64,000 nucleotides of DNA, taken from NCBI RefSeq assembly GCF_949628265.1, contig NC_088787.1, positions 12,390,501 through 12,454,500 of the forward strand. Reading direction: 5' to 3'. Below are positions 15,653-55,447 of the stretch, piece after piece. The notes below the pieces were generated by a model. It was given only the letters and a program-made list of their open reading frames with translations, was not told where the DNA came from and made no database searches. The position numbers were made by a program, and so were the translations under genes. Source of the DNA: Cloeon dipterum (taxonomy: Eukaryota > Arthropoda > Insecta > Ephemeroptera > Baetidae). The stretch's first letter is position 1. Each line of letters opens with the position of its first letter.

Positions 15653-18600
15653 ATGCCTCTGAAGGGACCACGCAAGTTGTCCGGCGTGCCGATCGAGTTG
15701 TCCGAGCAGAGCCGTTTCAGGGTGAACAGGATCGACTCGGTGGCGCTCGGCATGCACCGCGACGACAAGGGTTTGGGCTCGCTGCCCGAGGACGAGGTGC
15801 TCGAAACCACCAACGGACACGCCAACCTGGCCTTCGACTCTGGCGACGAGGACGACGAGTCCAGGGACGCCCTGCCGCCGATGCCCGTGACCAACAGCCG
15901 GCGGCCGTCGCTGCAGTACCAGTACACCCTGGCAGGATCGGGCACCGTTTACGGCGGCAATTTGGTACAGCAGACGCGCGAGGCGCTGCCCAGACTCGAC
16001 AACTACCGCGACCTCGCCTCCATCGCGGCCGGACACAGGCCCACGCTTGATGAGCTCCGCGAAAATGCCAAATTTGAGAAGGTACGATTTTTGTTCAATT
16101 TTTGGCTAAATAAAAAATATAATAATAGCAAAAGACACATTTTAACAGCAAGAAAAATAAAGTTTGATTCGATTGATTTAAATCTATATAACTTTCCTGA
16201 AAACTGCCGAAAGGATGCAGACTGCCAACCCTCAAGTTAATAAGGGAATCCAAAAATTCTGGGGTTTTCTCGATTTTTTTTTTTTTTTAATTGAAGATGA
16301 TGATTTGCTGATTTTTTATTTATTCTAGGGTTTGTTAGATGCACACACATATCTGTATAATTTAAAAGTAAAAAATTTGAAACAGCCATAATTTCCTGAA
16401 AATAGTGATCGCATTCCAATAAACTGTACAGTTTTTTAATCTGCTGAGCGAGACAAATCGAATGATATTTCTAATTTCCATTGGATGGGATCTTGAATTT
16501 TCCAAAATACAGTGGAAAATCGCGTGCAGAAGAATTTTTCTTTTCTTAAGACAGTTTTCGTGTTTTCAAAACTTGCCGGTCAATTTTTAAAACGTATTAA
16601 ACGGAAAATTCGGATTTTTTTTTCGGAGCATTGTATATTTTATCATCTTTCCGAATTTGCAAAGATTTTTTGTTTTCTGATGTATGACCTCACCAAAAGC
16701 CAATAAAGATAATAATAATAATAGCTCTAATATCATATTTTTAACTTTAAATCGTAGCCTTAACAGGCGTAGAAAATCCCCAAAATTTGGGATTCGCACA
16801 TCAATCGAAAAACATCATCTCATTTGAAACTCTGTAGGATAGTTAGAGAAAATTTCCTTGTTAGATGAGTGAAAAATAAACCGAATTTATTTATTATTAA
16901 AAACGAATCACATAAAATTGCAGATGTTTAAGAAATAAAAAACAACGTTCGTTGATGCGTTGTGTAACGAATGCTTGCCTTTTTCGGGAATGAGACGCTG
17001 TTTGCGTAAGGACGAGTGCACTGTGGTCGGAAATGGCAATCAAACGTGAGCGTGATGCAAAGTTATGCGATTCGATTGAAATGTTGCCGTAACCGATGCG
17101 CGGCAAAATATGTGATAAATCAATTTGGACAGTGGGGTCGTTTGCAATGATCTCCAACTACTGAAAATTTAAATTTTCGGAGTACGTCAGGCAAAACTTA
17201 GAAAGAGTCACATTAAAACTGAAATTTTAAGGACCAATCTGGTCTAAAACATTTTTATTATGCACCTTAGAGAAGCCTTGTCAATGAAGGAGAGTTAAAA
17301 AAATTATAAATCGATTACGTTGATTAATTCTTGTCATAAATTCATTCGAAAGAAAAAGGTTTTTTTAATAAGATACGGTGCTCGATCACGCAAATTTCAT
17401 GGCATGGGGACTCTTTGTTTCGTGCCAAAGAATTCTAATACGTATTTGAAATAGCAATTAGCTCACATATTGTTCTATTGTAAAAATACAAATAAAATGT
17501 GTTTTGCTACCATAGTCAAAAGATCAAATATACCTCTCATTAAATTAGCCGCTAAAAAATAAATCACAGTCATTGTTACCCTCATTCGTTTGAAGAAATA
17601 TTTAAATTTGGCCAATTTTCAGGCAGTGGAGCAAGGTGCGGCGCAAGAGGAAGCGCAAAGTGGCGCGATTAAATTCGGATGGATCCAGGGCGTGCTGGTG
17701 CGATGCCTGCTCAACATCTGGGGTGTGATGCTCTTCCTGCGTCTCTCGTGGGTCGTCGCCCAGGCAGGAATCAGTGCGTCATCTTTTCAAATTTAATAAA
17801 CACACTCGCTCAAAGCTGACTTGAAATTTCCCAGTCGAGGCGTGCGCGGTCGTTCTCCTCTCGGCAACCGTGACAACCCTGACCGCACTCTCTATGTCCG
17901 CTATTAGCACCAATGGACTCGTCAAAGGAGGTAAAAATTTGATAAACTATACTACTAGATTCTGAAGCATGCTCTCATGTTCGAACGAGATAAGAAACAA
18001 ATAAATTATCAACGGGGCTAAAACCTTTAAAATGGATTGGAAATGGGCAGTAAAGAGTTAATTTAAAAATCCAACGGATATTATCAATGATTTTTCTTTT
18101 AATTTCGATTCGTCTCGTCACGATCTATCCAATTGTGTGCAAATTATGAGGCAAATTTTCCTTCTGGCGATATAAATCGTGATTTTACAATTATTTATGC
18201 TCGCCGTTTGATCAACATGCCAACTTTGTAGAAGAAATTTAAATGGAAACCTGGCTCTTTCCCAAATTTAAAATGCAGTATGTAGCTCAATAATTTGCAG
18301 TGCTTATAACATGTGAATACAAAAATCATAATTGCAATTGAATCAGCTGATTTATTTAATTTTGAGGAAATTTTTAGGAGGAATTTACTTCATGATATCA
18401 CGATCGTTGGGGCCCGAGTTCGGCGCCGCTGTGGGCCTCGTGTTTTCGATGGCGAACGCGGTTGGCGTGGCCCTCCATACGGTAGGTTTCGCTGAGTCGA
18501 TGAACGACATGTTGAGAAGCATGGATGTTAAAATCATCGACAACAGCACCAACGACATTAGGATCGTCGGCACCATCGCTGTCACCATCCTGCTCGCCAT

Positions 18601-21600
18601 TTGCATCATCGGCATGGAGTGGGAATCGAAGGTTTTAATTTGATTTGTTTGCGAGGAAATTTTCTAATGCTGGAAATCTAGGCTCAAGTCGGTCTTCTCA
18701 TCATTCTCCTATTCGCGATAGCCGACTTCTTGATCGGAGGGTTCCTTGGCCCGCTGGACGACACCGAAATGGCCAAAGGATTTGTTGGGTTAAATGGTGA
18801 GAGATTTAACCAGTAATCCTTTATATTGATAATCTTAATTTTAATTTCCAGCAACGTTATTCGTGAACAATTTAAAACCCGATTTTCGTGTGGTGGACGG
18901 CAAGATGCACAACTTTTTCTCCGTATTCTCCATCTTTTTCCCGTCGGCAACTGGCATTTTGGCAGGCGCCAACATCTCTGGCGATCTGAAGGTCGGTCAC
19001 GTCCCAAATGACGCGCGAAAGTGTTTTATATCGGTTTTCCTTTCTCGATAGGATCCGTCTTCCAATATCCCCAAAGGCACCTTGCTGGCCATCTTGCTGA
19101 CAACCCTGTCGTACTTGGCGTTCGTGGTGATCGCTGGCGCCGCTGTGGTCAGGGACGCGTCCGGCAACGTGATGGAAATCGCCGGGTGGCAGTTCGCCAA
19201 CTGCACGGGCAGACAATGCGATTGGGGTCTGCACAACAGTTTCCAAGTGAGGAAAGAAAACAAAGCTCTTATGACGTACATAAAATTATTCATCGAATTA
19301 ATAGCAAATTCCTTTCTTGAAGGAAAAGGCTTCTTGTGGCAAAGAATACAAAATTCATATAAAACAAGATGAAAATAGAGTTAGCTTTTTACATGGATCC
19401 AAACAATCAATGCATCGCAGTATTCTTTGCAAACAAAGTGATTACGATTTGTAGGTACAAGCTGTTTATAAGTCCGTAATTGCTTAAGAAATTTTACAGC
19501 AGTAAAAACATGTGTTTTTCACGCGATAAAGCTTATCAGTTTCTACTCAACGCATTTGGAAATTGATCTTTACTTTACAATATAACTCATCATATTTTGT
19601 AATAATTCTTTTATTCGTCTTCCGCAAGTTCTTTTGCAATAATTTATTTTTAAAAAAATGGCTTGCAATTTAAAAGCATGCTTTGCGTGCAATTGCAATC
19701 AATGATGATTCAAAATCGGATTTGGGAGGATTGCGAAAGCTATCCGACTCCCTACTTGCTAGTTTGCACCTTTCCAGTGAGTTTCTCTTTAATAAAAGAC
19801 CGCGATCTTTTTCTGGACTGGGCTACCTCCAACGAGGGCCACGTTATTCGTTATTGGGACGCGACTTGTTCGCCCATCTCGAAAGAGATAAACTGATAAA
19901 AACCTAATTTTTCAGGTTATGGAGCTGGTCTCCGTTTTTGGACCTCTGATCTACGCAGGTTGCTTCGCAGCCACTCTTTCTTCGGCTCTGGCTTGCCTCG
20001 TTTCTGCCCCCAAGGTCTTCCAGGCCCTTTGCAAGGACAAACTGTACCCCTACATTGAGTGGTTCGGAAAGGGTTACGGCAAGGGAGGAGAAGCCTACAG
20101 AGCTTACGTCTTGACCTTTGTCATCGGCGTCTGCTTCATTCTCATTGGTAAAAACGGACTCATTTTCTCATTGTCTAAATCAATCCGAACTTCCTTTTGT
20201 CAGGTGATTTGAACGCAATTGCTCCGCTAATCTCCAACTTCTACCTGGCGTCCTACACCCTCGTCAATTTCTGCACATTCCACGCGTCACTGACCAAACC
20301 GATTGGCTGGCGGCCGACCTTCAAATACCACAACACTTGGCTCAGTCTGCTAGCCACGATAATATGCGTCTCCATCATGTTCCTCATCAGTTGGGTCACT
20401 GCACTCATTACGTACATCGCAGTCATATCACTCTACCTGATTGTCATGTACCGGAAACCAGGTACGCAGTTATAAACTGTCTGCGTTTGAAAGAACAAAA
20501 AATATGAAAATGTTTTTCAGACGTGAACTGGGGCTCGACAACCCAGGCGCAGACCTACTCAGCCGCGATGGGCCAGCTGCAGAAACTGGACTCGCAGCAG
20601 GAGCACGTCAAGAACTACAGACCACAGATTCTGGTCTTCTGCGGCCGACCCTCCGCCAGACCCACCCTGGTTGACTATGCAAACCTGATCACGAAGAACC
20701 TGGCACTCCTCATCTGCGGCAACATTGAAAAGGTGAGCAAAATAGTCCGAATTTAATTAAATTATCAAATAATCCAAATTTATCAAACCAGGCCTCTTAC
20801 ACGCACAAAGCAAGAATCGGAGTTGTCGACCGTGGAAATAGGTGGCTGCGTGACCACCAGAAGGTGAAGGCCTTCTACACGGTGGTCGACGGCATGGACT
20901 TTGAAGAGGGAGCCAGAGCTTTGATTCAGGCCTCTGGTGTCGGAAAAATGAAGCCAAATATCTTGCTCATGGGCTACAAGAGCAACTGGAAGAATTGCAA
21001 CGCTGACGACCTGAAGGCCTACTTCACTGTTTTATCGTGAGTTGACCAGACTGATTATTTCAGTTCCACTGCAATTTAATTTATTAATCTTATGTCGGCA
21101 CAATATTCACTCTCTAAATAGAATAGTCAAAATAGCGCGCCCTGATTTTACACGTTTATAAGGTGAAAACGATATTTATTCGCCTACAGGGTTGCCCTGG
21201 ACAACCATATGGGCATCGCCATCCTGCGCACGAGAGACCTGATGGACTACACGGGAGTAATCGCCGGCGAAGAAGAAATGGACGAGTTGATGGCCGCGCC
21301 GAAAATGCAGCCCGGCAACGACCTCTTGAAGGCAGAGTCCGGAATTAACGGTGAGTGCGGCGAGGGGACAATCGCGACACCTGCCTGGAGGCAGGCACTC
21401 CAACTCCAATCGGCTCACGAGCAATAATACGAAATCGTAATAACTTAACACGGCTGTCACACAAGTGTCGGCCTAGATTTCAGCGTGATTGCCTTATCAG
21501 TGCGCGCGAGTTTATGTAATTAGCGAGTGCATGGCTGCAAACCAATTTGCACCTACGCTCGTGCTCGCACACAAGCTGTTGCTTATTGGGTGGGTGCTCG

Positions 21601-22830
21601 AGTACCCTTGCGAAATGCGGAGAAAATTTATTGCTTTGATGCCAATGATGTTGTTTTAATTTGTGAAAGGCGACGGTACAAAATGAGAGATTTTTTTGGT
21701 AAACCAGGTTGTAAACCAATTTGTTCTTCAATATATTATTAAGCGATGATCAAAATAGGAATTAAAATTCAAATTCCACCAATTTCTCCAATATTTAGAG
21801 CGCTTGATTAAATTTTCGTGGCAATTTTCATTCCTCTCGTCGAGATCTATCCAACGTTGCATAACACTTTTTGGGGAAACTTAATGATGTGAAGACTTCT
21901 ATATTATTTCTTTCCAACCATAGGAATGGAAATGACTCCACCTGCTACCCCTGAAAACGCCAGGGTCACCTCTGACATTGTCGTAATGTCCAAGGACGAC
22001 AAGAAAAAGCCCAAAAAGAGGGAAAATGAGCCTGACTACAAGTAACTAAAAAACTTGCCAAAAAATCGGTCAATCAAAAATATATTAAATCAGGGCTATT
22101 GGAGGAGGAGATCTGCCCCAAGAAGTGATTAACAACCTGAACCAGTTCACGACGAAGCAGAAGAACGGATGCATCGACGTCTGGTGGTTGTATGACGACG
22201 GCGGTCTTACCCTCCTGCTCCCCTACATCATCAAATCGAGGAGCAACTGGGAGAACTGTCGCCTGAGGGTGTTCGCCCTGGCCAACTCCAAGGACGACCT
22301 CGAGATGGAACAAATCAGGTGGGATATTCTTGGTTTCGAATTGAGGACTTTTTTTAATTCTTTTTGAAAATCCCCAGCATGGCAAATCTGTTGTCCAAGT
22401 TCAGAATCGACTACTCAGACCTGATCATGATCCGCGAAATCACAAGAAAGCCCCAGGACTCGAGCAAGGCCTTCTTTAAGCACCTGATTCAAGATCTGAG
22501 AGCGCCCAAGGGAATTCCTGCCGATGCGTGCGAAGGAAAGATCGCTGATGCCGAGCTGCAAGCCAACAGAGAGAAAACGGGCAGACATTTAAGACTGCGC
22601 GAACTGCTGCAAGAAAACTCGAAACAATCCAATTTGGTCGTCATGTAAGTTTCACATATTGATTTATCCAATTTCGATTAACATTCTCTCGCAGGACCAT
22701 GCCGCTTCCTCGCAAGGGTGTGGTCTCAGCGCCCCTTTACATGGCCTGGCTGGAGACCCTTACGAGAGACATGCCGCCTTTCATGCTCGTCAGAGGCAAT
22801 CAGTCATCCGTGCTGACGTTCTACTCGTAA
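15653..22830 (+). CDS. SLC12 cation-chloride cotransporter NKCC-A (NCC-like ion site)
   Basis: Sixteen exons: 15653-16081, 17623-17773, 17835-17930, 18378-18631, 18682-18796, 18852-18991, 19052-19246, 19916-20147, 20204-20461, 20521-20732, 20792-21036, 21190-21350, 21924-22041, 22094-22318, 22378-22644, 22695-22830. They total 3234 nt, or 1077 residues, the usual family length. Order: regulatory N-terminus with kinase-docking RFRV (21-24), acidic patch and phosphoacceptor QQTREALPR (Thr108); twelve membrane segments from [14 protein letters not shown]; glycosylated loop with NCT; and a cytosolic tail with [18 protein letters not shown] ending in FYS. TM1, TM6 (FPSATG, Pro379) and the TM8 Na+ serines (Ser482, Ser483) are conserved. 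The K+-site Tyr of NKCC1 is His259 (ALHTVGF), as in mammalian NCC, so K+-independent Na-Cl cotransport is predicted. It lacks two introns found in B, C and D. Confidence 0.95.
18100..18195 (-). repeat. R1-type repeat fragment in NKCC-A intron 3
   Basis: The reverse complement of 11457-11560: shared words ATCACGATTTAT, TTTGCACACAATTGGATAGA and GACGAGACGAATCGAAA. A third copy lies at 43068-43150. Shares the CTCGTC-GATCT core with family R1. Confidence 0.6.
19748..19905 (+). repeat. Diverged SINE body in NKCC-A intron 7
   Basis: Begins CTACTTGCTAGTTTGCACC and contains GACTGGGCT and ATTCGTTATTGGGACG, matching the body of the SINEs at 9631-9870 and 11847-12089 with internal divergence. It ends just upstream of the exon 8 acceptor at 19914-19915. 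Confidence 0.7.
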
Positions 22831-24123: not shown

Positions 24124-24131
24124 TATAAAAG
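24124..24131 (+). promoter_or_regulatory. TATA box of NKCC-B
   Basis: TATAAAAG, 53 bp before the ATG at 24177. Confidence 0.75.
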
Positions 24132-24176
24132 AAGCCGCGCGACTTTTCTACCGTTCTTATTTGCGAAGGAGCAGGG

Positions 24177-27100
24177 ATGGATGGTGGCACGGGCAGCCGG
24201 TTCAGCGTCCGGCAGGTAATGGAAAGTCGACGAAGGAGTAGCTTCATGGCTGACGTGCCCGAAAACGGGGTCCTCGAGACCAGCATGTCGGCAGACCCGG
24301 AGCAGCCCACGCCGGCCCAGATGGGACCCCGTCGGTCCCTAGTGCACATGACGCGCGAGGCCCTGCCTCGGATGGCCAACTACAGGAACCTGCGCTCGTT
24401 TCGCGCGGCGCAGAGACCAACCCTCGGAGAGCTACACGAGGGTGTCAAGGAGGCAAAGGTGCGTCTGCTTACTTTCCTCAAAGTCGCACATGATTAAGCT
24501 TGTTTAGTAAATTCACTCTAAAAAAACATGATGCACTAGTTTAATAAATATTTTCCGCTTTCTGCGTGAGTTCTTCTTGCATTAAATCGTGTGTCTATTT
24601 TAAAACTATAAATGGCAATCAACAATTATTATTAATTAAACTGAGCCTAAGAATGAAATTTCAACTAACAAATGTATATCACAACATTTTTAAGGCTACT
24701 TTTCACGATGTAACATAGTATTAATAAAATTCGCGAACAAACTACACACCAAGGAAGCTGTAATTAATTTTAACCGGAAAATTATGACATATATATCGCA
24801 TCCATTGGAGATAGCCAACAAGTGAAATTGTATTTAAATCTAAACTCCATAACCTTAATAATAGTTCAAAACCCAAAACAATTTCGTAAACACTTGCTCT
24901 ACTTATCTTAAGCCCAATTGACAGGTCTTTTGAATATGCAAGGATATTCTTCTATCTAAGAAAAGGCTGTCGGTGTTCGTAAACGAGAAGACCAGCTGTC
25001 ATAACTGTTGAAAAGCACGTTTGAGTCCCACAACGCAATTTAAATGTGAACAAGAAAACAAAAAACAAAAACTGTTACTTAAAATGCATTTTGTTCAATG
25101 AAGAAAATTTTTCAGGGAAAAACATAAATTAAATGTTAAACCTCCTCGTTTTTGTCAATTATCATAGCATTTTTTTTAAATTAGGAGGAGGATACTGGAG
25201 TGGTCCAGGGTGGAGGAGGGCATCACTTTAAACTGGGATGGATTCAGGGAGTGCTGATCCCCGTCCTGCTAAACATTTGGGGCGTCATGCTCTTCCTGCG
25301 ACTCTCCTGGGTTGTCGCCCAAGCCGGAATTAGTAAGTGGCAAAATCCTATTTTCAAATATTTAAATCAATTATTCCTTTTCCAGTCATGTCCCTGGTGA
25401 TCATTGGAATCTCAGCTGCAGTGTGTGTGATCACGACGCTCTCCCTCTCCGCTATAAGCACGAACGGAGAAGTGAAAGGAGGTTCGCATTTTGGTAAAAT
25501 ATATTTTTCAAAATTTTAACCCGTGCCAACAACAGGAGGAATTTACTACATGATATCACGCTGTCTCGGCCCCGAATTCGGCGCTTCCGTCGGCATCGTC
25601 TTTGCTTTCGCCAATGCAGTGGCGGCTTCAATGAACACGATCGGATTCTGCGACTCGCTGAACGATTTGCTCAAATCACACGACCTGAAAATCATTGACG
25701 GCGGCATCAACGATGTGCGAATCATCGGTATGGTCGCTCTGGTCATTATGATTATCATCTGCGCCGTTGGCATGGACTGGGAAGTGAAGGTAATATTATT
25801 TTTAATAAAGAAAATAAATAAAATTCTCTCTGCTTTATTTTGAAATAAAATAAAATTTCAAGTAGGAATACTCCCATATCATGCTAACTTAGCAGCCATT
25901 TTTTCTCAATAATTTAGATAAATTTTGGCTTTAACTGCATCCTTAGGGACGAGTTTAAGCATTGGCAACCAGGAGTTTTCAGGGTGTTGAACCAATCCTT
26001 CTTTAATTTTATTATTTGAAATTTGATTTTAGGCTCAAAATGTGCTGGTTGTCATTATATCTGGCGCGATTGTTGACTTCATTGTTGGAACTCTGCGTGG
26101 TCCCGAAAGTGACGAAGAGGTTGCGAAAGGGTTCCCGGGATTAAGCGGTGAGTTTCGGGATTTTTCCAATTTTTGAAACTTAATTGAATTATTTATTTCA
26201 GTGGATCTCTTTACCAAAAATTTAGGCACCGATTATCGCTTCAGCGAGGGCGTCAACCAGGATTTCTTTTCCGTGTTCGCTATTTACTTCCCCTCGGTCA
26301 CCGGTATTCAAGCAGGAGCAAACATCTCTGGCGACCTCAAGGTGAATTTTTAATTTTACTTTAATTTCAGAGTTTAATTCAAGTATTGCTCCAGGACCCA
26401 GCCTCAGCCATTCCGAAAGGAACGCTTCTCGCCGTGGCAATTTCCATGTTTTCCTATGGCCTTTTCGTCCTGCTGGCCGGGGGTGGCGCCATGAGGGATG
26501 CGAGTGGCGTGATTGGCGACATTGCGAATGGCACCGTAGCCGACTGCATGGGGAGGCACTGCAATTACGGTTTACAAAATAGCTATTCGGTAATTTTAGC
26601 ACCCCTCTAAACCCTTCAGCTGGTCTGGGGAGGTCGAGACGAGTCTAATGGTGTGCAGTTATTGCAATTCTGATGGCTAGAACCTGAGATTTGGAGTTGA
26701 AAACAGGTGGAAGTCACGAACATACAAGTCTGAAAAATTGCGTTGTTCGTGTTTTGAAGTGGAATTTCTCGAAAAGCAACTTCAATTTTCACACAACAAA
26801 TTGAATGTTGAAGCACATTTTAAAAAAAATCCTGAATTCTGCATGAACTCATTTCCAAAATTTAAATAAAAAAACAAATATAACAGCCTTTGACCTTGGA
26901 CAAAAAATTCGGTGTTATTTCCATCAGGCTCGGCGAGAGGAATCCAAAGCTCACACCTTTTTTTAAATTGCACCTTGGGGACATGAGATACTGAGGTCTC
27001 ATTAAAGTTTTCCAAAATCGTCCCATAAATCCCGTAAAATCGAAATTTTTGTCGCAAAATCTACTAAGAGAGACTGATTTTTGGGATAAATTTCGCTGAC

Positions 27101-39136: not shown

Positions 39137-39316
39137 GCACCGATTACGGGCGATTGCAAGGTTGACCTGCGAATTTCACGAGTTCTTTAGATAGATCGGT
39201 GCATGAATTCGTAATGGCTCTTACCAAATCGATGGACAGAAGTTGCCGTTTGATCAAAAAGTCTATTTTTGTTGAGGAGTTGATAGATAATTCACAAAGT
39301 TGAGTGACTGATAGAG

Positions 39317-39588: not shown

Positions 39589-42500
39589 ATGGAACAGGTT
39601 CGGTCTTCGGTCTGCAGGATGGAGGAGCAGCAGCAAGAAGAGCAGAGCTCCCGTTTCATCGTCGACAGGGTGGACGCCGACGTCGAGATGGGCGTCGGCA
39701 ATGGCGACGATGGCGGTGCCGACGACGACAGCCCATCCAACTCGATCGGGCAGTACACGTACGTGTACGACACGCGCTATGCCAAGAGTATGGGCCAGCT
39801 CACCAGGGAAGCCCTGCCGAGGGCCGAAAACTACAAGGACATCATGTCCTTCGGCGACTTCCGACCCACCCTCGACGAGCTGCACGAAGGGCAGTTCAGG
39901 GAGAAGGTCAGTGAAGGTTTTCTTTCATGAATTCGTGAGCGGTGCGGAGAGAGGTCGACATTCTACTAGCAAAATATTTGTTTAAGCAAAGTAGTATAGA
40001 AATGGGAAAGAATGAATGAATTCTTTTTCTTTCTACGTTTTAAACGTTCTTTTAAAGAATTTCACAGCCATGCGCTTGAGAAAAGTGACAAAAAGGATGG
40101 GCGGGAATTAATGTCATGTGTGTTTGAAAGCATGCAATAATTACGGTACCGCTTTTGAGAGGATGACAAACAAGCTGTAAAGCCAGATAAGCCGACGAGT
40201 TACTTTTTTAGACATATTTCGCGTGTGTACCAGACGCACAGATAGATAAATTGAGTTTTTACACGTTAATAGGGATGAGAATTCGAGACATAAATATAGA
40301 TTTTTTCTGCTTTGTACTTTTGCATTAATCACCCAGGTTTAAAAAAGATATTTTAATTAAAATTTAATCCGTATATCACTTGTAAACTTGTTAACGAGCT
40401 AAAAACGTTGAAATGTTTCAGCGGAGTTTTTATTTTTCTCCAAAATATCAGGTTTATTAGATTTTTGCACCTCTGATACTGTTGAAAATTAAAAAAAAAA
40501 TCAAATAATTGTTGAGAAATTTTACAATTATTAGTCAGCTGCGGATTTCTGAAGAGTTTGAGAAATGTTTGCGAACAAAGAAGAAATATTTCCAGTGCCA
40601 AAAATCTCACATTTAAAAAAACTGCATGGATTTAACTCAGGATAAATTTTACTAATTTCCATTCCATAAATTTTATTTCGATGAGCTATTTTTTTAAGGT
40701 TTCGAAAGCAAAAAATTTGTTAAATTTGTGGAGATGGCGAGAAACGTGCATTTGTTCAAGCTAGAGTGTCGTCAACACTGCATTTTAAGTGTATGTATTT
40801 GGATTGGGCGAAGCCTAATAATAGAGTTGCACGTGACAGAAATAAACGTCGCGCGTTCCCGTTTTTTTTCTCCCACGTGCATTTAGGGCTTTGTCTATTT
40901 CCTAGGTGGAAAATTATTTTCTTCGTGAATTAATGATGTTTGGCGCCACTAAAAGATAAGCCAGCCGCGACTGCATCATACGAGACAACGCAGCTATGCG
41001 TTGACCTTTGACTCGTTTCTGTTTCTGCGGCTGGAAATAAAAACAAATAACACACAGCTTTCTAACGTGATTAACAATCGATCTCGTCTATTAACTTTGG
41101 ACATAAATTGAGTAGGTTTTAGAATTTTGAGAAACGCCTAACAGAAAGTAAAAGCTTCGCATGTGTCATAATAGAGAATAAATTAATTTCCATTCACGTC
41201 AAAATTTCTTAAAATAGCCGCGGAATGTCCAGTCACTTCGAATGACCGTGAAAATAATTTTGTGTCTGGAGTGACTTTCTAACTCCTGAACACACTTTAC
41301 GTCTCCTCTCTCATTTTGACATCTTGCCGTGCTTTTTTTTATCAGTTCGTTGTTGTCCATGCGGCAAAACATGTGTGAGCGACCTGGACTGGCAAATTTG
41401 TTTTTGTACAACACACGGAAATAGATACGAAGGCAGGCTGGCCGTTTCTTACTTAACTACAACATAATATATATATATTACAATTTCCACTGCTAATCTA
41501 TTTATAAAATAGATTGGAAAAGAAACAAGCGACTATTTCACTTAAAGGCACTTTGCAAATTAAATAAAATTATTAACGCTTATAGCAACCAATCATTCTC
41601 CTTGATTGAGTAATAAGATAAAACAATCAACTATTTTGATCAAATAAAATCGGCTTTTCCACACTTTCCTAAAAACTGAACATTTGAAACGATAAATAAT
41701 CAATTTTTCTCTAACTAAGCCGTTGGAAAAATGACAGATTTTTGAAAATTTTGCAATTATTCAGAGTTAAAAACAAGTTTACTGGATTTGCTGTGGAAAA
41801 CGAATTCTGGAAGAGGGCCTAACTCGTAGGTAGTTCCTCTAAAAATAAAAAAAAACGAAGGCATGGCACGTGTCGCAAAGCTTGGAAAAATCGTACAATT
41901 GTTCTTTTTACTGATAATTTGACCTTTACTGTATAGTGAATGTCAGGTAGGTGGAATCCTGATTAAATTATCCATTAACTATTGATTTTTAAAATGCGTC
42001 ATTTTGCATAAGTTCAATCGGAATGATGTAAAACGAGTGGGTTTTCGCTTGAAAAATAAATATTTTGCAAAAATATAAATAATGAAACGAAAATTACTCT
42101 TATATACTGATCTGGTTTTAAAAAATTGGCTTTCCGGCTCTGATTTCTACCATAAATACTATATTTTTACCAGACCTTTTTAATGTTTTACAAATGAGTC
42201 TCTCTCCGAAATAATTTTATGAAATCAAAACGCGACACCTGCATTAATTTTTTAACTAACCGATAAATTAAAAAAAAATTAATTTTAGAATCTCTGAGGC
42301 TTCCCTAGACCACCGTTCAACCATTGAATCTGTTTAAAGAAAATTCATCCAAGATTTTTATCTAGTTCCTTCGGCGACAGCGTCAATGAGAAACTCGCCA
42401 TAAATCATCAGGAACAACTTCGCGCAGGAAACTATCTAGCAATCTACGACACATTTATTATTATTTCAGGTTTTCTTGGCTGAATGGCGCAGTAAGAAGT

Positions 42501-45500
42501 GTCTGCAGTGTTACATTTCTTACTTACCGCATCACCAAGGTAAACGGAGGGAGAAATTAAAATTGAATAATATGCCTTGCGAAAGGCGAGACAAGAGCAG
42601 CGTGACATCACTCTTCGGAATATTTTGCGCGGCTCCGTCCTCCCCCTCAGCTCTTGCATTTATTTTTTTTTTATTTTTGCTCCTGTTCAAGGTGTTTGTG
42701 CACGTGTGTGACGTCACTTTTTTGACTGGGATATAGGCTAATTGCGACACTAGCGCCTGCTGCATCCTTCGTCGGTCGGTCGTGCGAAAAGTTGATGTAC
42801 GTGCTCTGGCAGTTTGACGCGGGGCGCCTGATTAAAATCACTCCGGTGTCTCGCATTTGACCGTGTCAATCAGCGAGCATACGCGTAAATCAGAAATGCA
42901 ACTTATCTTGCTTCGAATTTAATGGAAATTATTTACTGGAAAATTCTGAATAATAATTTTTACCTTTACTTGGAAAAAAACTCATTAAGAATTGGGGAAG
43001 AGCTAATCTGTCGTTTAAATTTCTGAGTTTGAATGCTAATCAAGCATTGTTTCTTATCTCCCTACCGTAAAATCACGATTTATTTCACAATTTAGTGAAT
43101 TTTTCCTCACAATTGGACAAGTCGCGAAGGAGGGATCGAAATTTAAGCGAAATATGGTAAAATCCGAAATATAACTCTTATATATTTATTCATAATTTGA
43201 TTATTGCACTTTTTAGAGATTATTATTCAACGATCTAAATTAATTTCAAATTGTATATCCTTTTTTTAAATGAAATCATCCCTGAAATGTTAACAAATCA
43301 AAATTAGCACAGAGTAAAATTGTTAAAAGGCCTTGAAGAGCTGAGCAATTCGATACAGCTGTTCAAGGGTGGATTTTCCTGACCGGGATAAATTAATTAG
43401 GCGGCTTGCGTTATCTTTAAGTGAGCAGGATCAATATATTCGAGCACCGGTTCGTAATCAGCAGACGCCGCCGAGGCCGCCTGTTGCGTTTTCCCTGCTG
43501 GCGTGCAGAACGCAACGTAAGCTGCGCGCACTTCTGAGCTGCAATTACAATCGCTATGTTATGCCAATTATTTTAGGTGCAGTTACGTCCAGTGCAACAT
43601 TTCTAAAAGTACTATAGTACATACACGACACAAGTTTATGTAGAGAGCAAGAAGGTTTTAAAGTGGAATGATACTGGGCAACAATTGAAAATTATTTAAA
43701 TTGTTGCATGTCTTAAACAATTGACCGATAAACGATTTGTTCAATAATTTGCAATAATAATGACCTTCCTACAGTAAAAATTAAAATTTTGCCAATTTTC
43801 GCCAAAATTTACAGTGCTCGAACATATTTTCTTGGCATATTCCGATTCCTCTCGTCGAGATCTGTTCAACGGTGTATGCCACTTACTGGGGAAACTCTTG
43901 GTTTTGAAATTAAATCAGATTTCAAGTAAGGAGACAGCCATTACCATTTGAAAAGCACGGTAACCTGCCAGCCAATTTTCTCCAAAAATTACAGCGCTCC
44001 TTAGGTCAATTTAGGCTTTAACTGAATCCTAAGGGATGAGTTTATGCATTGGCAACAAGCATTTTCCAGGCTTTTCCAGTATCATTCCTCTTTAAAGAAA
44101 TCAGCAGCAGACTTAATTTATATCCATTAGCAGGTGCTAGACGAAATTTTGAATTTATATTTTAATGGTAACAATTAATTTTGCAATTATTATAGTTTAC
44201 TCTAATTTCATGTTTGTTAAAGTTGATTGATGCAGGAAAATTATTTTAATTGTTGGATGCAATAAGTAGTTTATCGATAAACAATTTGTTCTACAATTTG
44301 CAATATTCAAAAAAGGAGCTGGCCAGAGTAAAATTTTAAAACTGTATCCAAAATTCACAGCGCTTACCACATTTTCTTCACAGATTTTGATTCCTCGTCT
44401 CGTCGAGATTTGTCCAACAGCGCGATGAAATCTTTTCAGGAAACTCTTTGTTGTAAAATAAAATAGTTATTCAAATAATGAGACAGTCCTCACCATTTGA
44501 AAAGCATGCTAATTTTGCAGCCACCATTCTAAAAAATTTACACTCTGCTACTTAGGTTTGGCTTCAACTGGATCCTAAGGGATGAGTTCATGCATTGGCA
44601 ACAAGCATTTTCCAGGATTTTGCACTGTCAAATCCTCTTTAATTCAATAGTTCCAATGAGCGTAACTCGGAAAATGAAATTCTCATAACATAATTTTACT
44701 CCCAAAAATAGAAAATAGCAATGCTCTATATATGTATACTACTTATTGCGGGGCATCAGCTATGATACAGATATTTATGCTTTTATATAATGACCTAGTT
44801 TTAGTTCTGCGTGATTATCAAATAAAATAATCATCCTAAAATAGAACTGAAAATAAATCCATTACGCTCATTTGAGCACGCACTCGGTGAGAATAAATCA
44901 ATGCCTTGCGTATCTCTGTGAAAAATGTCTTGATCTTCTTGGAAGCTAGCATTTCATTTTGCGTCACAGGGGGAGAAACAATCATTACTAGGTTTGTTAT
45001 CACTGTATAATGTGGGTAGTGACACAATAATTCCATTTGCTGGGCGCATCTCCCTGCCGAGGGGGAGGGGGCCGATATTAGGCAAAGTGCATGACATAAT
45101 GCGTCCGTCCGAACGATCGGGTGCTCGCAGGCCCGACATAAAAGTGCGTTTTGATAACAATTGCTGTGAGCCAACCCCATTCAATATATATTAAGTGCGA
45201 CGAGCGGCTCAATTTGTAGTCCCCCTTGCATTCACCGCGAGCACTCAATTAGAAAATGGGTCAATTTTTTGTTTGCATTCGCGCAAAATCGAGTGTTCGG
45301 CCGGTGACAAGTCGTTGCTGCGCTCACTTATTTGAACGTTCAACGCGGTCAATTTGCATATTCGGTATAGTGTATGTTAAATCGATTTTCCGCAGGCGGT
45401 CAGTTAGATAATCGTCGATTGCCGTTATTGGTGCTAGATAAACTGGATTTTCACCAAGCCTGTTGACTTAATTAAATAAACCGGTGGCCACCGAGTAAAA

Positions 45501-48500
45501 CAACACAGGAAATTTACTAAGCGATTTCAGATTTAGAACCAATCCATCTAATTTTATAGGTTATACAGTAGACCGTTTATTTATTTGATGTGATAAAATT
45601 ATTATTTCATGAAATACTTTGATCACTTCGGTGCATCCGCATCCATCCTCTCTTGACTTTTTGCTTTTTTTCTTTAGAAAAAAGCCCAAAATACTGCTGT
45701 GATTTTCACCGGTGGCCGCAAAAAAGCGGTGCTGGAATTTACAGACTCCCACCTCAATTATTTAGTATAGTTTGGCGACCAGCTGGACCTTTTTTCAATG
45801 CTCTCGTATGAATCGGCGTGCGGAGAGAAATCCCGGCGAGGGGGCCGACGGACGAAATTAATGGAATAATGATATCTGAATATCAGCAACAATGACGACA
45901 GCGGCAGATGCGGCATTAAACGATGATGTCTCTCTGCACCCTAATTTTCTTTCCTCTATGCGAATTAGATTGAGATTTGTGGGCGGGTCGGCCGAAATTG
46001 CACACAAACATTGCGCTTTAGCTCCCACCGATTGCACAATCCGACCGTGAATTTCTGCAGCTCACGTTTCGGTCACGTGAAGAATCTGTGCGTATATGCG
46101 TATGGCTCTTTCGAATAATGGGCGTTTAACTTTTTGATTACGTGCACGCACAAAGAAAGGCCCTACGCGCGTCCGTCCGGCATCTCATATGCAAAGGACG
46201 TCGTTGCATCAAAATAAATTGGTTCTTGTCCAGGTTGGCGGTTGGCGAACGATGCGTGCGGTCAAGGCGGCTGGCTTGCATCTAAATTTTGCAATCGCTC
46301 TCGCGGGAGATGAATATTCTAGAGAGGCAATCGTCAGCAGATTCAAAGAATTATTTCGTTAGTTTGGGAAATTAAAATCCTAATTCGTTAGATTTCTACG
46401 ATGTGAGAAATTCAAATCAAGCCAAAATTGACAATACCGCTTGATTAATTTGAATTTAACATTTAAATTTGATTAGACTTAAAATTTGCTAATGCATCAT
46501 TCAATTTAATTTCAATTTTTGCCCTGCATGTCAATCCACTTCAAAAAATCTTCTCTACGGGTGGATTGTGGAAGTTTCTTTTTAGCGAAATAAATCCCAC
46601 TTGACAGGCGCTCAAGCCAGTGAGCCGATTGCGCAGATATTTATGCTACACCTGACTTCACCTAAATGTCAAATGGTAGAAACTGAAAATTTGATGAACT
46701 GCTAATTTTAGTCAAAATATTGAATCTGATTTTGGCATTTGCGCTGAATCTTTACCTTTTTAAAGGTTTGTTGTTGTTTGGTTTTCGTTGGATTTGTGAT
46801 GTGATCCAAAGTTTAGTGGTCGTAATTTTCTATTCAACAATTTTAGCAATTTACGGAGCGTGGAACAATTCCAAATATATATCGAAATCCATTTATAAAT
46901 TTAATTAAAATTTAATTTAATTTCTAGATAATATGATTTGCAAGAAAACAGTATATTTTGAGACGAATCGATCCATTACTTATTTTTGACATTATGTGAC
47001 TTTTTATTGCTTTGTTTAGCAAAATAACCGACCATTTTTAGTGCAAAATACACGATTTATAAGCCGATTTGGACATTTTTTTTACTCATCATTTTAGCCA
47101 AATTTACACGTTTTTCAATTAAAATAGCACTTTTCCGAAAAAAATCTATCGTTTTCTGTTAACAAAAAACGAAAATGATAATTCCAATTTGTTATTTAGA
47201 GCATTATAGAAAAATCAGAGCTGAAACTTTTAAGGAAGTATATGGGCCAGAATATTTACGGTCAAAATATACCGCCAAAAATTAAATTGCATGAAGAATT
47301 TCCTGGCTCGAAATTAAAGGTATGCATTTTTCTCGGTGATTTGGATGGTTTTTAGAGGGGTCCATGACGATTGGAAACTCATAAAAAATTCACAGAAGAA
47401 GAATAAGGTGTAGCTCTTAGCAGAATGTTCGCCACAAAGGTTTTACAGGCCAATTTGCGTTTGTTGTTGACCCGATGCCGGCGTCGCGTTGTCCAAACAC
47501 TCTCGAGCCTATTAAATAATAATAATCGGGTGCACGGAGGCGCGAGAGAAGCGTTTTTTAATTTACAACTCGTCGTAAAAGCAGCGCGGCCGACGTCATG
47601 CTCGTGCAATTAACCAATTCTTATGTTTGCCCAAAGTGAGCAAACTGAATCTCGGCGCGGAGTTGTGAATGGGAGCTGCTGCTGCTGCTGCTGTCGGCGC
47701 GCGGGCCGCATCGACAGCAGTGTAGCAGCAGCAGCACATCCTGCTGCCCCAATTGCAATTATGTACGTTCGCGCTGACTGAGGATGTCGCCAATCAAAGA
47801 CACATATCGCACAAAACGCGCGACGCGGCCAGTTGCGGATTAATTTAATAAATAACTCGATCACTTGTCGCCGCTCCCTGATAATATTTCACGATGGCAA
47901 TATTGATATGCCCACGCTGGAGCGTTTTTTTACACAAATTGAGCTTGAATGAAGATCGTTGGTTTATTTCTAGAGGTCTCAGCCGCGAGATTTAAGGCGG
48001 CGGCTGGCCATTTCCACCGGCGGCTGGCGCGGCTGACAATAATTTAAACGTGAAGTTTGCTAGTTCTTAACGGCCCGAAATGTTTTTCTCCTCTGCACTT
48101 TTTAATTATCGACCCTTTTTCACCGGCGGCTGGCGGCTGCCCTCGTGACCCAAAATTTGTCGGCTGGTACGGCACAGACCTCTATTAATGTCCGCTTCTA
48201 TGGGACGTTTGGAAGCGAATGTTTCTGACTGGGATAACTAAAGATTTTTTTAAAAAATATAACATCGTATTTTATGCATTTAGAGCGCATAAAGGGGGGT
48301 TGAAAGGGTGGCACCCTTAAAGTGCTTCGGCTATCTAGGGGAGATTGATACGATTCTAGCGGTGTGTTGTTCTTGAAATTCCGTCAATTATAAGCCGAGA
48401 TTTGTGCGTTACAACATTTTTTGATATATGAATTTTAAAGCAGTAAAATGTGTTTCAGAAAGCCGAAAAAGAGGAGGTTGTGGTTCAAAAGAAAGGCAAA

Positions 48501-51500
48501 GTGATCAAGTTCGGATGGCTGGAAGGCGTGTTTGTAAGTACCGTCGAGTTATCTGACAAATGAACTGGCGTCAACAGACAAAACTGTCCAAACCAGATGC
48601 GGTGTCTGCTCAATATCTGGGGTGTGATGCTCTTCCTGCGGCTCTCGTGGGTCATCGGCCAGGCCGGAATTTGTGAGTGGTTCGTCTCGCCAATCATTCA
48701 TCTTTATTTAATTTTAATTCCAGTCGAGGGCCTGCTGATCATCACCCTGGCCAACGTGGTGACCCTCGTGACGGCCATCTCCATGTCGGCGGTGAGCACC
48801 AACGGCCAGATCAGCGCCGGCGGCATCTACTACATGATTTCCCGCGCGCTCGGCCCCGGCTTCGGCGGCGCAATCGGCCTCATGTTCACGCTGGCAAACT
48901 CGATCGCCGTCTCCATGTACATCGTCGGCTTCTGCGAGTCGTTGCAGGACCTGCTCGCCTCCTACGGCACCGTCCTCATCGACGGCGCCACCAACGACAT
49001 CCGCGTCGTCGGCATCATCACGCTCATTGGCATCCTCGTGCTCGCTATTGTCGGCATGGACTGGGTCACCAGAGTAAGAACATTCATATTTTATTTCCAT
49101 GGTTTTCAAGGCAAATTATTTAGGAGGCTGACCTTTTCTAAAATGCGTAAAAAATCTAGGTCATAAAATTGGCAATTTGTTTTATTCGTTAACAAAATTA
49201 GAGCTCCGTGAATTTGGAGGGGTTTTATTGGCATTGAAATTTTTAGTTGGAAATTCCAGGTTTGAAGCTCGGGAATGGGGGCGTTTCCAAAAATCGAATT
49301 CTGTGTATTATGGAAGGTGAACTTTAACTCTTGACTGCGTTGAGATATCACCTTGATATTTTCACTACCGAACTCAGTTTTCGATCCTGAACAACTTTTA
49401 AATTTACAAAAAATTCGCAGGTCAAAGGTCAAAGTCACCTTGTGTGCAATTTTTTGTCGTAAATTCAAAATAAAGAGCTGTAATGCAGCCCGCGAAATTC
49501 TGCACAAGCACACCAAGTTTCATAGGTGCAATTGCTATAGTTTTGCTGTAATTCGAAACTGAAGTTTAAAAACCGGCTCTAGGCCGCTCGACCGCGCATG
49601 GCGCATGGCCTTTGAGCAGCGAGTTCTTCAAGTGTATTCTTTTCGCATTTCATTTGCTTAGAAACAAAAAGAGAGTCTAGGATGGACCGAGGAAGGTTGC
49701 AATCGACTTTCAGGGTCTGTACTTGACTTGACCCTGAGATAAAATAGTTCGTAAATTTATAATTTCACCTGAATTGGTTCGCGGAGAACTATGCTCATTA
49801 ATTACTGTCATATGCGAGCTCGTTGGCTTACAGCCCACGGGAAGAGCTGAGCAGAGGTTCTTGAAAAAACATCATTTTTTTATTTAATGTATAATTAATT
49901 TTTTCTTAACTGAAAAGGAAAAATAAACCAAGTGACGTCCTAATTCACAATTTGGCTGCTCTAAGTTTAATTTGTGCTTATAGAAATAATAATTTTAAAA
50001 AATGGATAGAAAGCCGACGTATTTTTCATTTACCGCTGAAAATATAAAATACAATAAATTTCTAATTTTTGTGATTATTCCAGTTCCAAATGGCATTGCT
50101 CTTTGTGCTGATCTTCTCTCAAATCGACTTCATCATCGGCACATTCTGGGGGCCTTTGGATGTTGAAGAGCAGGCGAAGGGCTTCGTTGGATACAGCTGT
50201 AGGTTTTTTCTTTAATTTAAATCAACAATTGCAGTACTATAACACCCAATTTCAGCGGAGGTGTTAAAACAAAACTGGGGACCAGACTACCGCGAGTTCG
50301 AAGGCGTTCAGCACGACTTCTTCTCGGTGTTTGCCGTCTTCTTCCCCGCCGTGACTGGAATCGTGGCCGGAGCTAACCTTTCTGGAGATCTTAAGGTAAG
50401 CGCTCTCTTAGTTAATTACTGGCCGCTCGTAAAAAATGTTTTTAATTAGGACCCTGGTAGTGCGATCCCGCTCGGAACTCTGTTGGCTATTGCCGTCACT
50501 TTCGTCTCCTATTTCGGCTACGCCATCATGATCGGCAGCTGCGTCTTGCGTGACGCTTCAGGCAATGTCACCGAGTATTTCATGGGCCTCAACGAAAGCG
50601 CCGCTGATGCTATGAAATACGTCATCAACTGTACTGACCGAGAATGCAATTACGGCATTGAAGTCGACAGCCAGGTGACTATAATTTTCATTTTTAGGGA
50701 GAAAACAATTTTTTAAAAACCGCAATTTGAAAAGAGAAAAAAATTATGTTTCTCCTTATTCTCAATTGAGAGAAAAATCAGAATTTTACCCGTTCGCGCG
50801 GGAGGTTATTAAATTTTTGCCTTGATTGATTAAAAAAGTTGAAAAGTTTTTAAATTGGAAAATTTAAAGTTTTCCTTTAGCTTGTACGGACAGGTAGAGA
50901 AGTCTATAAATTTATCTCCTTTGCACAATTTTAAAATATCTCTACCGGGCTATGTACATACAAGTTCCAATGTGTTTCCAATTTTAAATTATTTTCTTTA
51001 TTAAATATGATTTAAATCATTTATTTTATTTTATCAAAATTAACAAAAATTGATTTTGTCTCACAGGCCATGGAGTTGGTGTCCGTTTGGGGACCTCTTA
51101 TTTACGGTGGTTGCTTCGCCGCCACCCTTTCATCCGCCATCGCCAGTTTGGTCGGCGCTCCTCGCGTCCTACAGGCCCTGGCCAAGGACAAACTTTACCC
51201 CATGATCGGCTACTTCGCCGAAGGCTACGGCGCCAACAACGATCCCGTTCGTGGATACGTCCTCGTCTTCATCATCTCATTCGCCTGCATTTTGATCGGT
51301 AAAATCCACGACTCTGCCAATTTTTTTCATTTAATTTATGAATGTAATTCAGCTCAACTGAACGCAATTGCTCCGTTGCTGTCTAACTTTTTCCTTGCGG
51401 CGTACGCTCTCATCAACTTCTCAGTGTTCCACGCAACTATTTCTAAAACACCGGGTTGGAGACCTTCATTTAAGGTAGATTTCGGGGATAAAAAAAGAAA

Positions 51501-54500
51501 TTTTTATTTATTGAAATTGTTTTCAGTATTATAACGAGTGGGTAAGCTTAGTCGGCACGATTTTGTGCATCATCGTGATGTTCCTGATGTCCTGGGGAAC
51601 CGCCCTCATCACCTTTGCCACCGTCGTTTTCCTGTACCTTTACGTCTCCTACCGAAAACCAGGCAAGTATAAAAATGAATTGTGTTTTTCACTGACACAA
51701 ATTTCTCTGGAAGTAAAAAAAATGCAATAAATTTTTTGCCATCGTGTGAAAGATAGGAAATATTTCAATATTTTTTTGGCATGCTCACAAAATATTTACT
51801 GTATATTTTATTTCTTGTGACAAAATTTCTATTGTTGTAAAATATTGTATTCATTTTTAACTTCATGAAAATGGTGGACTGGATTCGGCGGAACTGGTCA
51901 AGTGATATTAATTATATAGCTGATCATTTTCCTCTGTGATTGATTAATAGAAAAATGAATTTGAAATTAACAGACGCAAACTGGGGCTCGTCTGCTCAAG
52001 CGCAGTCATACAACTCTGCTCTGAAGGGCATGCAGGAGTTGAACAGCGTGGAGGAGCACGTCAAAAACTACCGTCCACAACTCTTGGTGCTCACTGGCAT
52101 GCCGGGCGCGCGACCTCCGCTCGTGGACTTCGCCAACCTGATCACCAAGAATGTGTCCCTCCTCATCTGCGGCCACGTGCTCCTGGTACAGATCAATTTT
52201 CGCTATGGAAACTTTCTGCATAAACTGTGTTTTTACTCTGAAGGGTAACCATAACCAGCGTATCCACGAGCATTTGAGGGCCAAAGCCTTGTCCTGGCTG
52301 CAAAGGCACAAAACCAAAGGGTTCTTCGCCATGGTTGAAGATCCATCCTTCGAAGGGGCCTCCCAGTCCCTGATGCAGCTGGCCGGGCTGGGAAAACTGA
52401 AGCCTAATCTCATGCTCATGGGTTATAAGGGAGACTGGAATTCCTGTCACAGAGAGGAACTCAGGGCGTACTTCAACGTCATTCAGTACGTGTTACAATT
52501 TTTATTATTACAGCGATACCCCCCCCCCCCATCCTCTGTAAAACGTAAAAACTTTTACAAAGCTGGAATATTTTATTCATTTACATTTCAGTTTTAAAAT
52601 CGGGGGTAATTTTGGATAATAAAAAATACTTTTAACATTTTTTTGCTATTAAATTGTAGCAGGGGATTGAAAGGGGTGGAGGGTGAGCACCCTTTTACCC
52701 ATTAGCTGGTTAGGGTGGATGAGATGAGTCTAATGGTGGGTAGTTTTTGCATTTCTGAAGGTTAGAATCCGAGATTTGGAGTTGCAAATAAATGCAAAAC
52801 AAAAGAATAAGTCGAAAAATTCTAGCTTTGAATTTCTCAATAAATAAGAACTTTGAATGCAGCAATGCTTTCGATCGTCACTTGGCTGTCGGAATTCTGC
52901 GGCTACGAGAGGGCTTGGACTACTCGAACGTCGTCGTGGAGGAAGAACAGAGGGAGACGAAGAAGTTGCAATCAGGTATTGCTCATTTTCACGCAAATTC
53001 CTTTTCACCCACAGAGTGGATGACGAACCAAGGATTGTTCATGCCAACACATTGAAGTACACACGTTTTTATCTTTTCGGGTTGGATGTTGAATATTTCC
53101 AGGGTCTCCAGGGCTCGTGTGGATCAAAGAAAGGGTTAATCAGTGCCGTTATTTTGACTGCGGTGAGTCGCCTTCGGGAGCCCCCTTTTTCAGACACTAA
53201 ACCATTTTATTATTTTACGCTCTTTAATGTTGTTGGGTTTCATCCGGGTTTTTTATTATTTTTGCTGGCGGCGTGGATTTCTCTTCACTAACTTATGTCG
53301 TTCGTTTTTGTCACATAATGCATGCTGTTGCGGTAATCTCGGAAACCTGCGGCACCGTAAGTCGTACACTCGCTAATTTTTCTGCCACACTCTTTATCGT
53401 TCCGTCTTGCATGCCTTTTGCAGCGTCACTACATTTATTGGTGTTCTTTTCATTTCAGCTAATTTTTATTATTAATTTTGACCACTTTGCACGTTTCATT
53501 GCAGTTGGCTACTGTCCTTATACTTAATTGTTGCATGCGGGTGTCAAAAAGGGTTAAAATTTATCCGAAATTGAGCGTTGATTTCGATTCTGCAGACGGC
53601 TCCAGCAGCGACAGCAGCCACGACCCGGCCAAGGAGCCGCTGAAGAAGAAGGACAAGAAGAGAAACTCTTCCAGCTTTGCCTACACTGGCCCAGGCGGCC
53701 AGCCGCTGTCCAAGGAGGTCATCAACAGTCTCACCCAGTTCTCACGCAAGCAGCGAAAGGGAACCATTGACGTTTGGTGGCTTTACGATGATGGAGGTGA
53801 GTTTGAATAATTAAACTAAAAAAATCAAGGTCTAGTTGTAACAAACAGACACAACAATATTTCAAAGCAATGCATTTTTTTAAATTCAAATGGAATATTT
53901 TAAGCAAGTCCTAGACTGTAACTTATTTTTAATGCATTCAAATGAAGCTCAATTAAATGACACAAAAACGGTTTAATTATGCAGTAAATAATAAATATTT
54001 TTATTACATAAAAAAGAAACCAAAATCGAGTTAAGAGTTTTTTTTAATTAATTAATCCATTTAAGGTCTTACACTTCTCATTCCGTACATTCTGAGCCAA
54101 AGGAAAATATTCGCCGGCTGCAAGCTCCGCATTTTCGCCCTTGCTAACAAGAAGAATGAGTTTGAACAGGACCAAAGAAAGTAAGAGAATTAAAAATAAT
54201 GCAAGTAATTTTATTTTTCCTTCTCTAATGACCTACCTAGGATGGCGGCTCTCCTCTCCAAATTCCGTATCGAGTACTGCGACGTGATCGTGATCCCTGA
54301 TATCGCGAAGAAGGCGCTTGAGTCGACGAAAAGGGATTTTGAATCCCTGATCAAGCCTTTCAGGGTTACTGACGGTGACACGAATGCTCCCGATGGTATA
54401 TTATTTCTTGCCGATTTGTAAAGTTAATCATTATTTGCAACAGATGAAATTTGCATCCGCGACTCGGAGCTCAAAGCTCACATGGAGAAGACGAACCGGC

Positions 54501-55447
54501 ACCTGCGACTCAGGGAGCTGCTCCAGAAACACTCCCGCGAGGCCACTTTTGTTGTCATGTGAGTCCAGTTTGCTCAAACTCAACCAACACACTTATTTTC
54601 AGGGTTGGACAAAAGGTTGGACACTTTAAACTCTAGGAACACTACCTCTTACTTCCAATTTAATTTTAGCATTTTGTGTTGTACTTTGTAGTCCAAATAC
54701 ACTTAATAATTACGGTAATATTAAAAAAACTCGAATGTCGCGAGGGTATTTTTTTATCCAAACGCTAATAATGTAATTAATTCATATTTGCATATCGCGA
54801 ATTTGCATCCAATGACTTTTCACCATCATAATTTTTCAGTAAGCCAAAATGAATTTGACTTGTAGACACAGGATTTAATTTAATTCATCAAAATTAAATA
54901 TTTAAAATTAAAACAATCACAAATAATTATGTCCTGAAAACATAAATATATTTTCCAACTCAAAACAAGTTATTTGAAAATGTTTACTATACACAGTAGT
55001 GTCGAATATAAATTCTGACATCAAATAAGAGTTTCTTAGGGCCATAAACCTATAAAACGACACCTACACATCGCAGATTTTTAATATATCGCAATTTTAC
55101 CTTCAGGGTCACGTCTAGGTCGGGCCCTGAGGACTAAACCTGGCTTTTTATTGACAATCTAGGTTTCTTTAGTGCGCCACAGTATTTTAAACATGTGGAA
55201 TTGCTATTTTTTTAACACAAATTAAAATTACTGGAAAACCCGGTCATTTCTTGCTTATTAAAAAAGCACACGGACCAGTCCTGCTTATTCTTCTTCTTCT
55301 TTTAAAATTAGGACTCTGCCGATGCCGAGAAAGGGAACCGTTTCGGCGCCGCTGTACATGTCGTGGCTGGAGATGATGACCAAGGACATGCCTCCATTCC
55401 TCATCGTGCGCGGCAACCAGACGTCTGTGCTCACGTACTACTCTTAA
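39589..55447 (+). CDS. NKCC: SLC12 Na-K-2Cl cotransporter NKCC-D (conventional ion site)
   Basis: Eighteen exons: 39589-39906, 48459-48533, 48597-48672, 48724-49073, 50084-50198, 50256-50395, 50450-50674, 51067-51298, 51353-51474, 51527-51662, 51974-52185, 52244-52485, 52863-52975, 53596-53796, 54066-54180, 54241-54395, 54444-54558, 55312-55447. Total 3078 nt, 1025 residues (1015 from ATG 39619). RFIV at 22-25 is the SPAK/OSR1 docking site and QLTREALPR holds Thr72. The NKCC1-type ion residues are all present: LNIW in TM1, Tyr222 (SMYIVGF), Pro342 in TM6 and Ser455-Ser456 in TM8. The loop before TM8 has NVT, NES and NCT. An electroneutral, bumetanide-type Na-K-2Cl carrier is predicted. It differs from A-C by an extra intron in TM1, a missing intron before TM3, an 8.5-kb first intron, and a GC donor at 51663. 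Confidence 0.95.
43680..44640 (+). repeat. Tandem duplication of repeat R1
   Basis: Two R1 copies in the same orientation, about 43680-44095 and 44230-44640, with a period near 550 bp. Each runs GAAAATTATTT-AATTGTTG, then the CTCGTCGAGAT core, GGAAACTCTT, GAGACAG, CATTTGAAAAGCA, and CCTAAGGGATGAGTT with GCATTGGCAACAAGCATTTT. Confidence 0.75.
47675..47737. repeat. CTG/CAG inverted repeat
   Basis: A CTG run ending CTGCTGTCG (47675-47695) faces CGACAGCAG and a CAG run (47712-47737) across a GC-rich loop of about 16 nt. A long imperfect hairpin can form. Lies in NKCC-D intron 1. Confidence 0.8.
49190..49560. repeat. R2-like repeat in NKCC-D intron 4
   Basis: Weak similarity to R2: AGGTCAAAGGTCAAAGTCA and CTTGACTGCGTTGAGATAT-like words, with orientation uncertain. 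No ORF. The intron (49074-50083) otherwise holds nothing recognised. Confidence 0.35.
52640..52810 (+). repeat. R2 repeat fragment in NKCC-D intron 12
   Basis: Contains GAGATGAGTCTAATGGTGG, TTGCATTTCTGAAGGTTAGA and CCGAGATTTGGAGTTGCAAA, shared with 26620-27130 and 59227-59984. A run of ten C lies just upstream at about 52519-52528. Confidence 0.65.

Follow-up and report, generated by a model that had tools for sequence, protein, structure and literature searches.

A 64,000-nucleotide stretch of Cloeon dipterum DNA (NC_088787.1, positions 12,390,501 to 12,454,500, here called the window) contains four intact SLC12 genes in tandem on its forward strand, named A, B, C, and D, and a fifth such gene, E, lies past its end. 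The explanation given slightly better than even weight is that this is a tandem N(K)CC array in which the tyrosine that coordinates K+ was lost on the common stem of A, B, and C; A would be a K+-independent Na-Cl carrier that arose apart from vertebrate NCC, D and E would be Na-K-2Cl carriers, and B and C would move Na+ without K+.

Tyr383 of human NKCC1 lies in the K+ site, and His234 of NCC is at the matching place, according to published structures (PMC7035313, PMC9645730, PMC7889885). The sequence-only reading of this DNA had assigned four residues of A to D to this column, and both its motifs and its numbering prove exact: ALHTVGF with His259 in A, SMNTIGF with Asn209 in B and Asn192 in C, and SMYIVGF with Tyr222 in D. 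The alignment of all four with human NKCC1 and NCC is free of gaps over NKCC1 positions 370 to 400, and it places the key residues in the K+ site. The codons at this column (TAC, CAC/CAT, and AAC) are separated by single coding steps, and identity of the four proteins to human NKCC1 is 48 to 55% over 631 shared columns.

Five K+-site residues (N298, I299, Y383, P496, and T499, in human NKCC1 numbering, as throughout) are all present in D and E; A and B are without the Tyr, and C is without both the Tyr and the Pro. The Na+-site set (L297, W300, A610, S613, and S614) is complete in A, D, and E, and four of the five are present in B and C, in both of which the similar residue Thr replaces Ser614; the trees described below nevertheless put both proteins beside A within the N(K)CC branch. 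Departures of B and C beyond the K+ site include S614T, as well as L502Q at the second Cl- site and E389D at the outer gate. C in addition has P496T. E also keeps seven of the seven Cl--site residues checked, and D has Val at the Leu502 column. The Tyr and intact K+ site of D agree with the proposal that it is a Na-K-2Cl carrier, although the plainest NKCC of the array is E, with 60.5% identity to human NKCC1 versus 54.0% for D. Arg307 and an acidic residue at position 389 are kept in A, B, and C. At the N terminus, the Thr at the column of human T217, presumably the phosphorylated threonine, is present in all four of A to D, and an RFxV motif, the type that docks SPAK/OSR1 kinases, is present in A, B, and D; it was not found in the modeled N terminus of C (window positions 30702 to 30935).

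The trees are based on the transmembrane region, minus columns 383, 384, and 497, and their only rows besides those of this genome are human NKCC1, human NCC, and KCC4. A, B, and C form a clade together with a copy from a decayed cluster on another contig, C5, described below (support 98/95), and A, B, and C do so in a tree without KCC4 and the C5 copy (96/95); human NKCC1 and NCC pair with each other in the two trees (98/100 and 100/100), and the placement of D and E is not settled. The approximately unbiased (AU) test rejects a grouping of A with human NCC (P = 0.0004 and 0.0002), of A, B, C, and the C5 copy with NCC (P = 0.0001), and of A, B, and C with NCC (P = 0.00001). These rejections argue that the His of A arose apart from the His of NCC, so that the independence which had been raised as a possibility holds within the sampled rows. 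The contrary explanation, that A and vertebrate NCC share an ancient NCC-type ancestor lost in other invertebrates, would account for their common His-Thr pair and Ser497 and for a third transmembrane helix (TM3) that is locally NCC-like, but it is at odds with the AU tests and with the well-supported pairing of human NKCC1 and NCC, and is very improbable.

KCC4 has Tyr at the column, as do all three of the bacterial homologues read (six plasmid records contain bacterial homologues), so that Tyr looks ancestral; a search for insect sequences, in one scan each of viral contigs and of prokaryote genome contigs, found no relative. On a seven-row tree the residue requires a minimum of three changes, one in NCC and two among A, B, and C, and the loss of Tyr would most simply fit one event on the stem of these three genes, followed by a split into His and Asn, rather than a separate loss in each gene.

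A resembles NCC in more than the His. D, E, and human NKCC1 agree at 264 of 527 ungapped columns; at 16 of the 264, both A and NCC depart from the common residue, and at 10 of those they have the same one. For D, the corresponding count is 4 of 17, taken over the 279 columns at which A, E, and NKCC1 agree. Simulation under LG+C20+F+G4, with 400 alignments on each of two topologies, predicts 2.7 +/- 1.6 and 2.9 +/- 1.7 shared derived residues for A and NCC, and none of the 400 reaches 10 on either topology, whereas the 4 of D are ordinary (P = 0.49 and 0.56). When columns 383, 384, and 497 are dropped, A still shares 8 versus 2.6 and 2.7 expected, a number reached by 13 and 14 of 2,000 simulations; C shares 5 (674 and 722 of 2,000), D 4 (1,000 and 1,006), and E 1 (1,725 and 1,726), and a control comparison of A with NKCC1 yields 0, so that C, D, E, and the control behave as simulated. 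The changes common to A and NCC are G313A, Y354F, A379G, Y383H, V384T, A497S, G535A, S618C, A642G, L722I, and V726I. An 80-residue stretch from TM3 to TM4 of A scores 95 to 97 bits to NCC chains versus 86 to 88 bits to NKCC1 chains (HMMER). This gathering of NCC residues suggests that A is most likely a K+-independent Na-Cl cotransporter reached apart from NCC.

Several observations weigh against this interpretation. The whole of A is nearer to NKCC1 than to NCC (964 versus 864 bits, 54.8 versus 52.8% identity). B is a borderline case, sharing 8 residues with NCC (P = 0.035 and 0.043) and 7 in the reduced set (140 and 165 of 2,000), and its sharing is in part by descent in common with A. The reduced-column P values come from six comparisons and are uncorrected for that number. 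Some of the states shared by A and NCC could be old, since KCC4 has them at 497 and 642 and a cyanobacterial homologue has them at 354, 384, and 535, and the small sampling of the trees leaves room for hidden shared ancestry or retained states. In published transport data, the H234Y form of NCC gains no K+ transport and is a disturbed protein (PMC9645730, PMC11381001), and changes at Tyr383 impair NKCC1. The former result indicates that this residue alone does not set selectivity, and the view of it as a single switch of stoichiometry has to be given up. Finally, aeCCC2, the sole expressed mosquito relative of a K+-uncoupled insect clade, did not act as a Na-Cl cotransporter (PMC6468792).

A bolder version of the same interpretation is tentative and on balance doubtful: A would be a second, independent NCC-type Na-Cl cotransporter, derived from an NKCC through repeatable changes; K+ independence would be set by the shared residues, acting as the missing partners of His234; and B and C would represent a third, Asn-based form of K+ uncoupling. 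The Asn is common to B, C, and all seven TM3 exons on C5, in keeping with its earlier designation as a third state, and neither it nor an NCC-convergent invertebrate paralogue is mentioned in the literature searched, which consisted of open-licence papers. However, B and C differ from NKCC beyond the K+ site, and changed or lost coupling is thus as likely for them as a new stoichiometry.

An insect branch uncoupled from K+, CCC2/CCC3, is already known, and its description reports a diverged TM3, no Rb+ uptake by Drosophila CG31547 or by aeCCC2, and a Cl--independent Li+/Na+ conductance for aeCCC2 (PMC6468792). This experiment, the nearest to the present case, favors equally well a second explanation, for which the prospects are close to even but somewhat short of it: A, B, and C may simply be this species' genes of the CCC2/CCC3 clade, whose tested members take up no Rb+, with nothing special in the link of A to NCC, and perhaps with a Na+/Li+ conductance in place of NaCl cotransport. 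Loss of Tyr on one stem is what such a clade would be expected to have, and the altered Cl--site and gate residues of B and C are in line with it. It does less well with the excess sharing with NCC: A shows a clear excess and B a borderline one, and there is none in C, D, and E. The two explanations are also compatible, as A to C may be CCC2/CCC3 genes and A still convergent with NCC, and the likeness to CCC2/CCC3 is one of published description. The mosquito genes aeCCC2 and aeCCC3 are reported, in work by Piermarini of 2017, to be tandem duplicates with differences in their TM3 residues.

A census beyond the window covers the genome of this species (190 Mb in 10 contigs). Used as a query, the TM3-TM4 exon of B has 13 matches, which comprise the five genes on C2 (the contig of the window), seven matches on C5, and one weaker match on C3. 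All seven TM3 exons on C5 have Asn at the Tyr383 column. They lie in a cluster of scrambled and decayed B-like SLC12 copies (C5:24602703-24685343), which was read in parts; in the stretches read, five of seven matches to TM1 have an in-frame stop at the identical spot, and when the C-terminal part of B is the query, C5 yields a single C-terminal exon versus the seven TM3 exons. The cluster includes long direct repeats with up to 97% identity, suggesting late amplification.

The C5 copies bear on a further explanation, that B and C, and perhaps A, are no longer coupled transporters and have drifting pockets, serving as regulators or heading for the same decay. The B-like nature of the C5 copies and their shared stop speak for it, as do the changes at the Na+, Cl-, and gate sites of B and C, the Thr in place of Pro496 in C, and the missing RFxV motif of that protein. 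However, A, B, and C are open across 16 to 19 exons with standard splice sites and encode both expected Pfam domains, and they keep Arg307, the acidic residue at 389, at least four of the five Na+-site residues, and the N-terminal Thr of the TREALPR motif; loss of coupled transport is consequently considered unlikely.

To return to the favored explanation, the gene structures, residues, tree, and excess sharing with NCC are observations, and the transport activities and the order of changes that they suggest are as follows. Old tandem duplications among SLC12 N(K)CC genes would have enlarged the array; D and E would still have the K+ site in its ancestral form and are most likely Na-K-2Cl carriers. 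On the stem of A, B, and C, the K+-coordinating Tyr would have been lost and V384T and A497S acquired. A would then have settled on His and gained further residues found in human NCC. The branch of B, C, and the decayed C5 relatives would have taken Asn, and B and C would have altered their Na+ site, second Cl- site, and outer gate; the most likely outcome for these two is Na+ transport that does not involve K+ and in which Cl- coupling is altered or lost. If so, A could help reveal what makes a sodium-chloride carrier ignore potassium: an independent lineage with the same pocket residues provides a short list of candidates, and the Tyr-containing genes D and E provide a natural control. A would also offer a molecular candidate for K+-free NaCl uptake in an invertebrate.

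The models of A to D were assembled by eye, exon by exon, from the sequence, and each is open from its ATG to its stop codon, with no internal stop in its translation (Table 1). Splice pairs of the 67 modeled introns are GT-AG in 66 and GC-AG in one, intron 10 of D (window positions 51663 to 51973); the pair at this place in A, B, and C is GT-AG. All four proteins match the Pfam AA_permease and SLC12 C-terminal domains above curated cutoffs. Eleven intron positions, with phase, are common to the four genes and three more are common to three of them, identifying A to D as duplicates of one another; pairwise identity among the four is 49 to 61%, highest for B and C.

Table 1. Coordinates of the SLC12 genes and of selected exons and codons in the window
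Feature	Window positions	Strand	Description and basis
Gene A, SLC12 N(K)CC-type	15653..22830	+	16 exons, 1077 amino acids (aa); His259; NCC-like pocket; exon model, Pfam, tree
TM2 exon of A (96 bp)	17835..17930	+	Same length as TM2 exons of B, C, and both of E
His259 codon of A (CAT)	18476..18478	+	Column of NKCC1 Tyr383 and NCC His234; next codon ACG, Thr260
Gene B, SLC12 N(K)CC-type	24177..29640	+	19 exons, 1028 aa; Asn209; exon model, Pfam
TM2 exon of B (96 bp)	25386..25481	+	Exon model
Asn209 codon of B (AAC)	25634..25636	+	K+-site column; alignment, codon reading
Gene C, SLC12 N(K)CC-type	30702..35724	+	18 exons, 979 aa; Asn192; Thr312 at Pro496 column; exon model, Pfam
TM2 exon of C (96 bp)	31338..31433	+	Exon model
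Asn192 codon of C (AAC)	31718..31720	+	K+-site column; alignment, codon reading
Gene D, SLC12 N(K)CC-type	39589..55447	+	18 exons, 1025 aa; Tyr222; first intron 8.55 kb; exon model, Pfam
Tyr222 codon of D (TAC)	48918..48920	+	K+-site column; alignment, codon reading

The order of genes is A, B, C, a NAXD-like gene, D, an alpha-mannosidase gene, and then E. The NAXD-like gene is represented by a reverse-strand exon for an NAD(P)H-hydrate dehydratase (window positions 38630 to 39175), and the alpha-mannosidase gene by exons of a glycoside hydrolase 38 enzyme, also on the reverse strand (59983 to 61733). Near the start of the window are part of a protein-tyrosine phosphatase gene on the forward strand (318 to 677) and two reverse-strand stretches of galactose-3-O-sulfotransferase type (3166 to 3888 and 5128 to 5544), which are probably neighboring genes.

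E is on the reverse strand (C2:12460526-12467929), has Tyr in its K+ site, and has its stop codon about 6 kb beyond the window end; a motif search of 14 kb upstream did not reveal the N-terminal exon, and the model consists of 974 residues from just before TM1. Two homologous TM2 exons of 96 bp, each with splice sites, follow one another in E and are perhaps mutually exclusive. No second TM2 exon is evident in A to D, as tblastn with six TM2 peptides, below an E value of 1e-5, returned the four known exons alone.

A is like vertebrate NCC (SLC12A3) in having His, Thr, and Ser at NKCC1 columns 383, 384, and 497, together with eight further NCC residues that NKCC1, D, and E do not have, but by the tree tests it is not an orthologue, and the protein as a whole is nearer to NKCC1. 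A to C resemble aeCCC2, aeCCC3, and CG31547, as described in print, in being insect CCCs with a predicted Na+ coupling and a diverged TM3. D and especially E resemble NKCC1 and the insect NKCCs Ncc69 and aeNKCC1, keeping the Tyr and other K+-site residues in comparison with human NKCC1, although D is unlike NKCC1 in its Val at the Leu502 column and E in its duplicated TM2 exon. The latter arrangement is similar to the A, B, and F forms of exon 4 in NKCC2 (PMC7818487), in that homologous alternatives code for TM2 and the following loop and one is to be chosen; however, E is a different gene with two such exons rather than three, and the choice between them is predicted from sequence.
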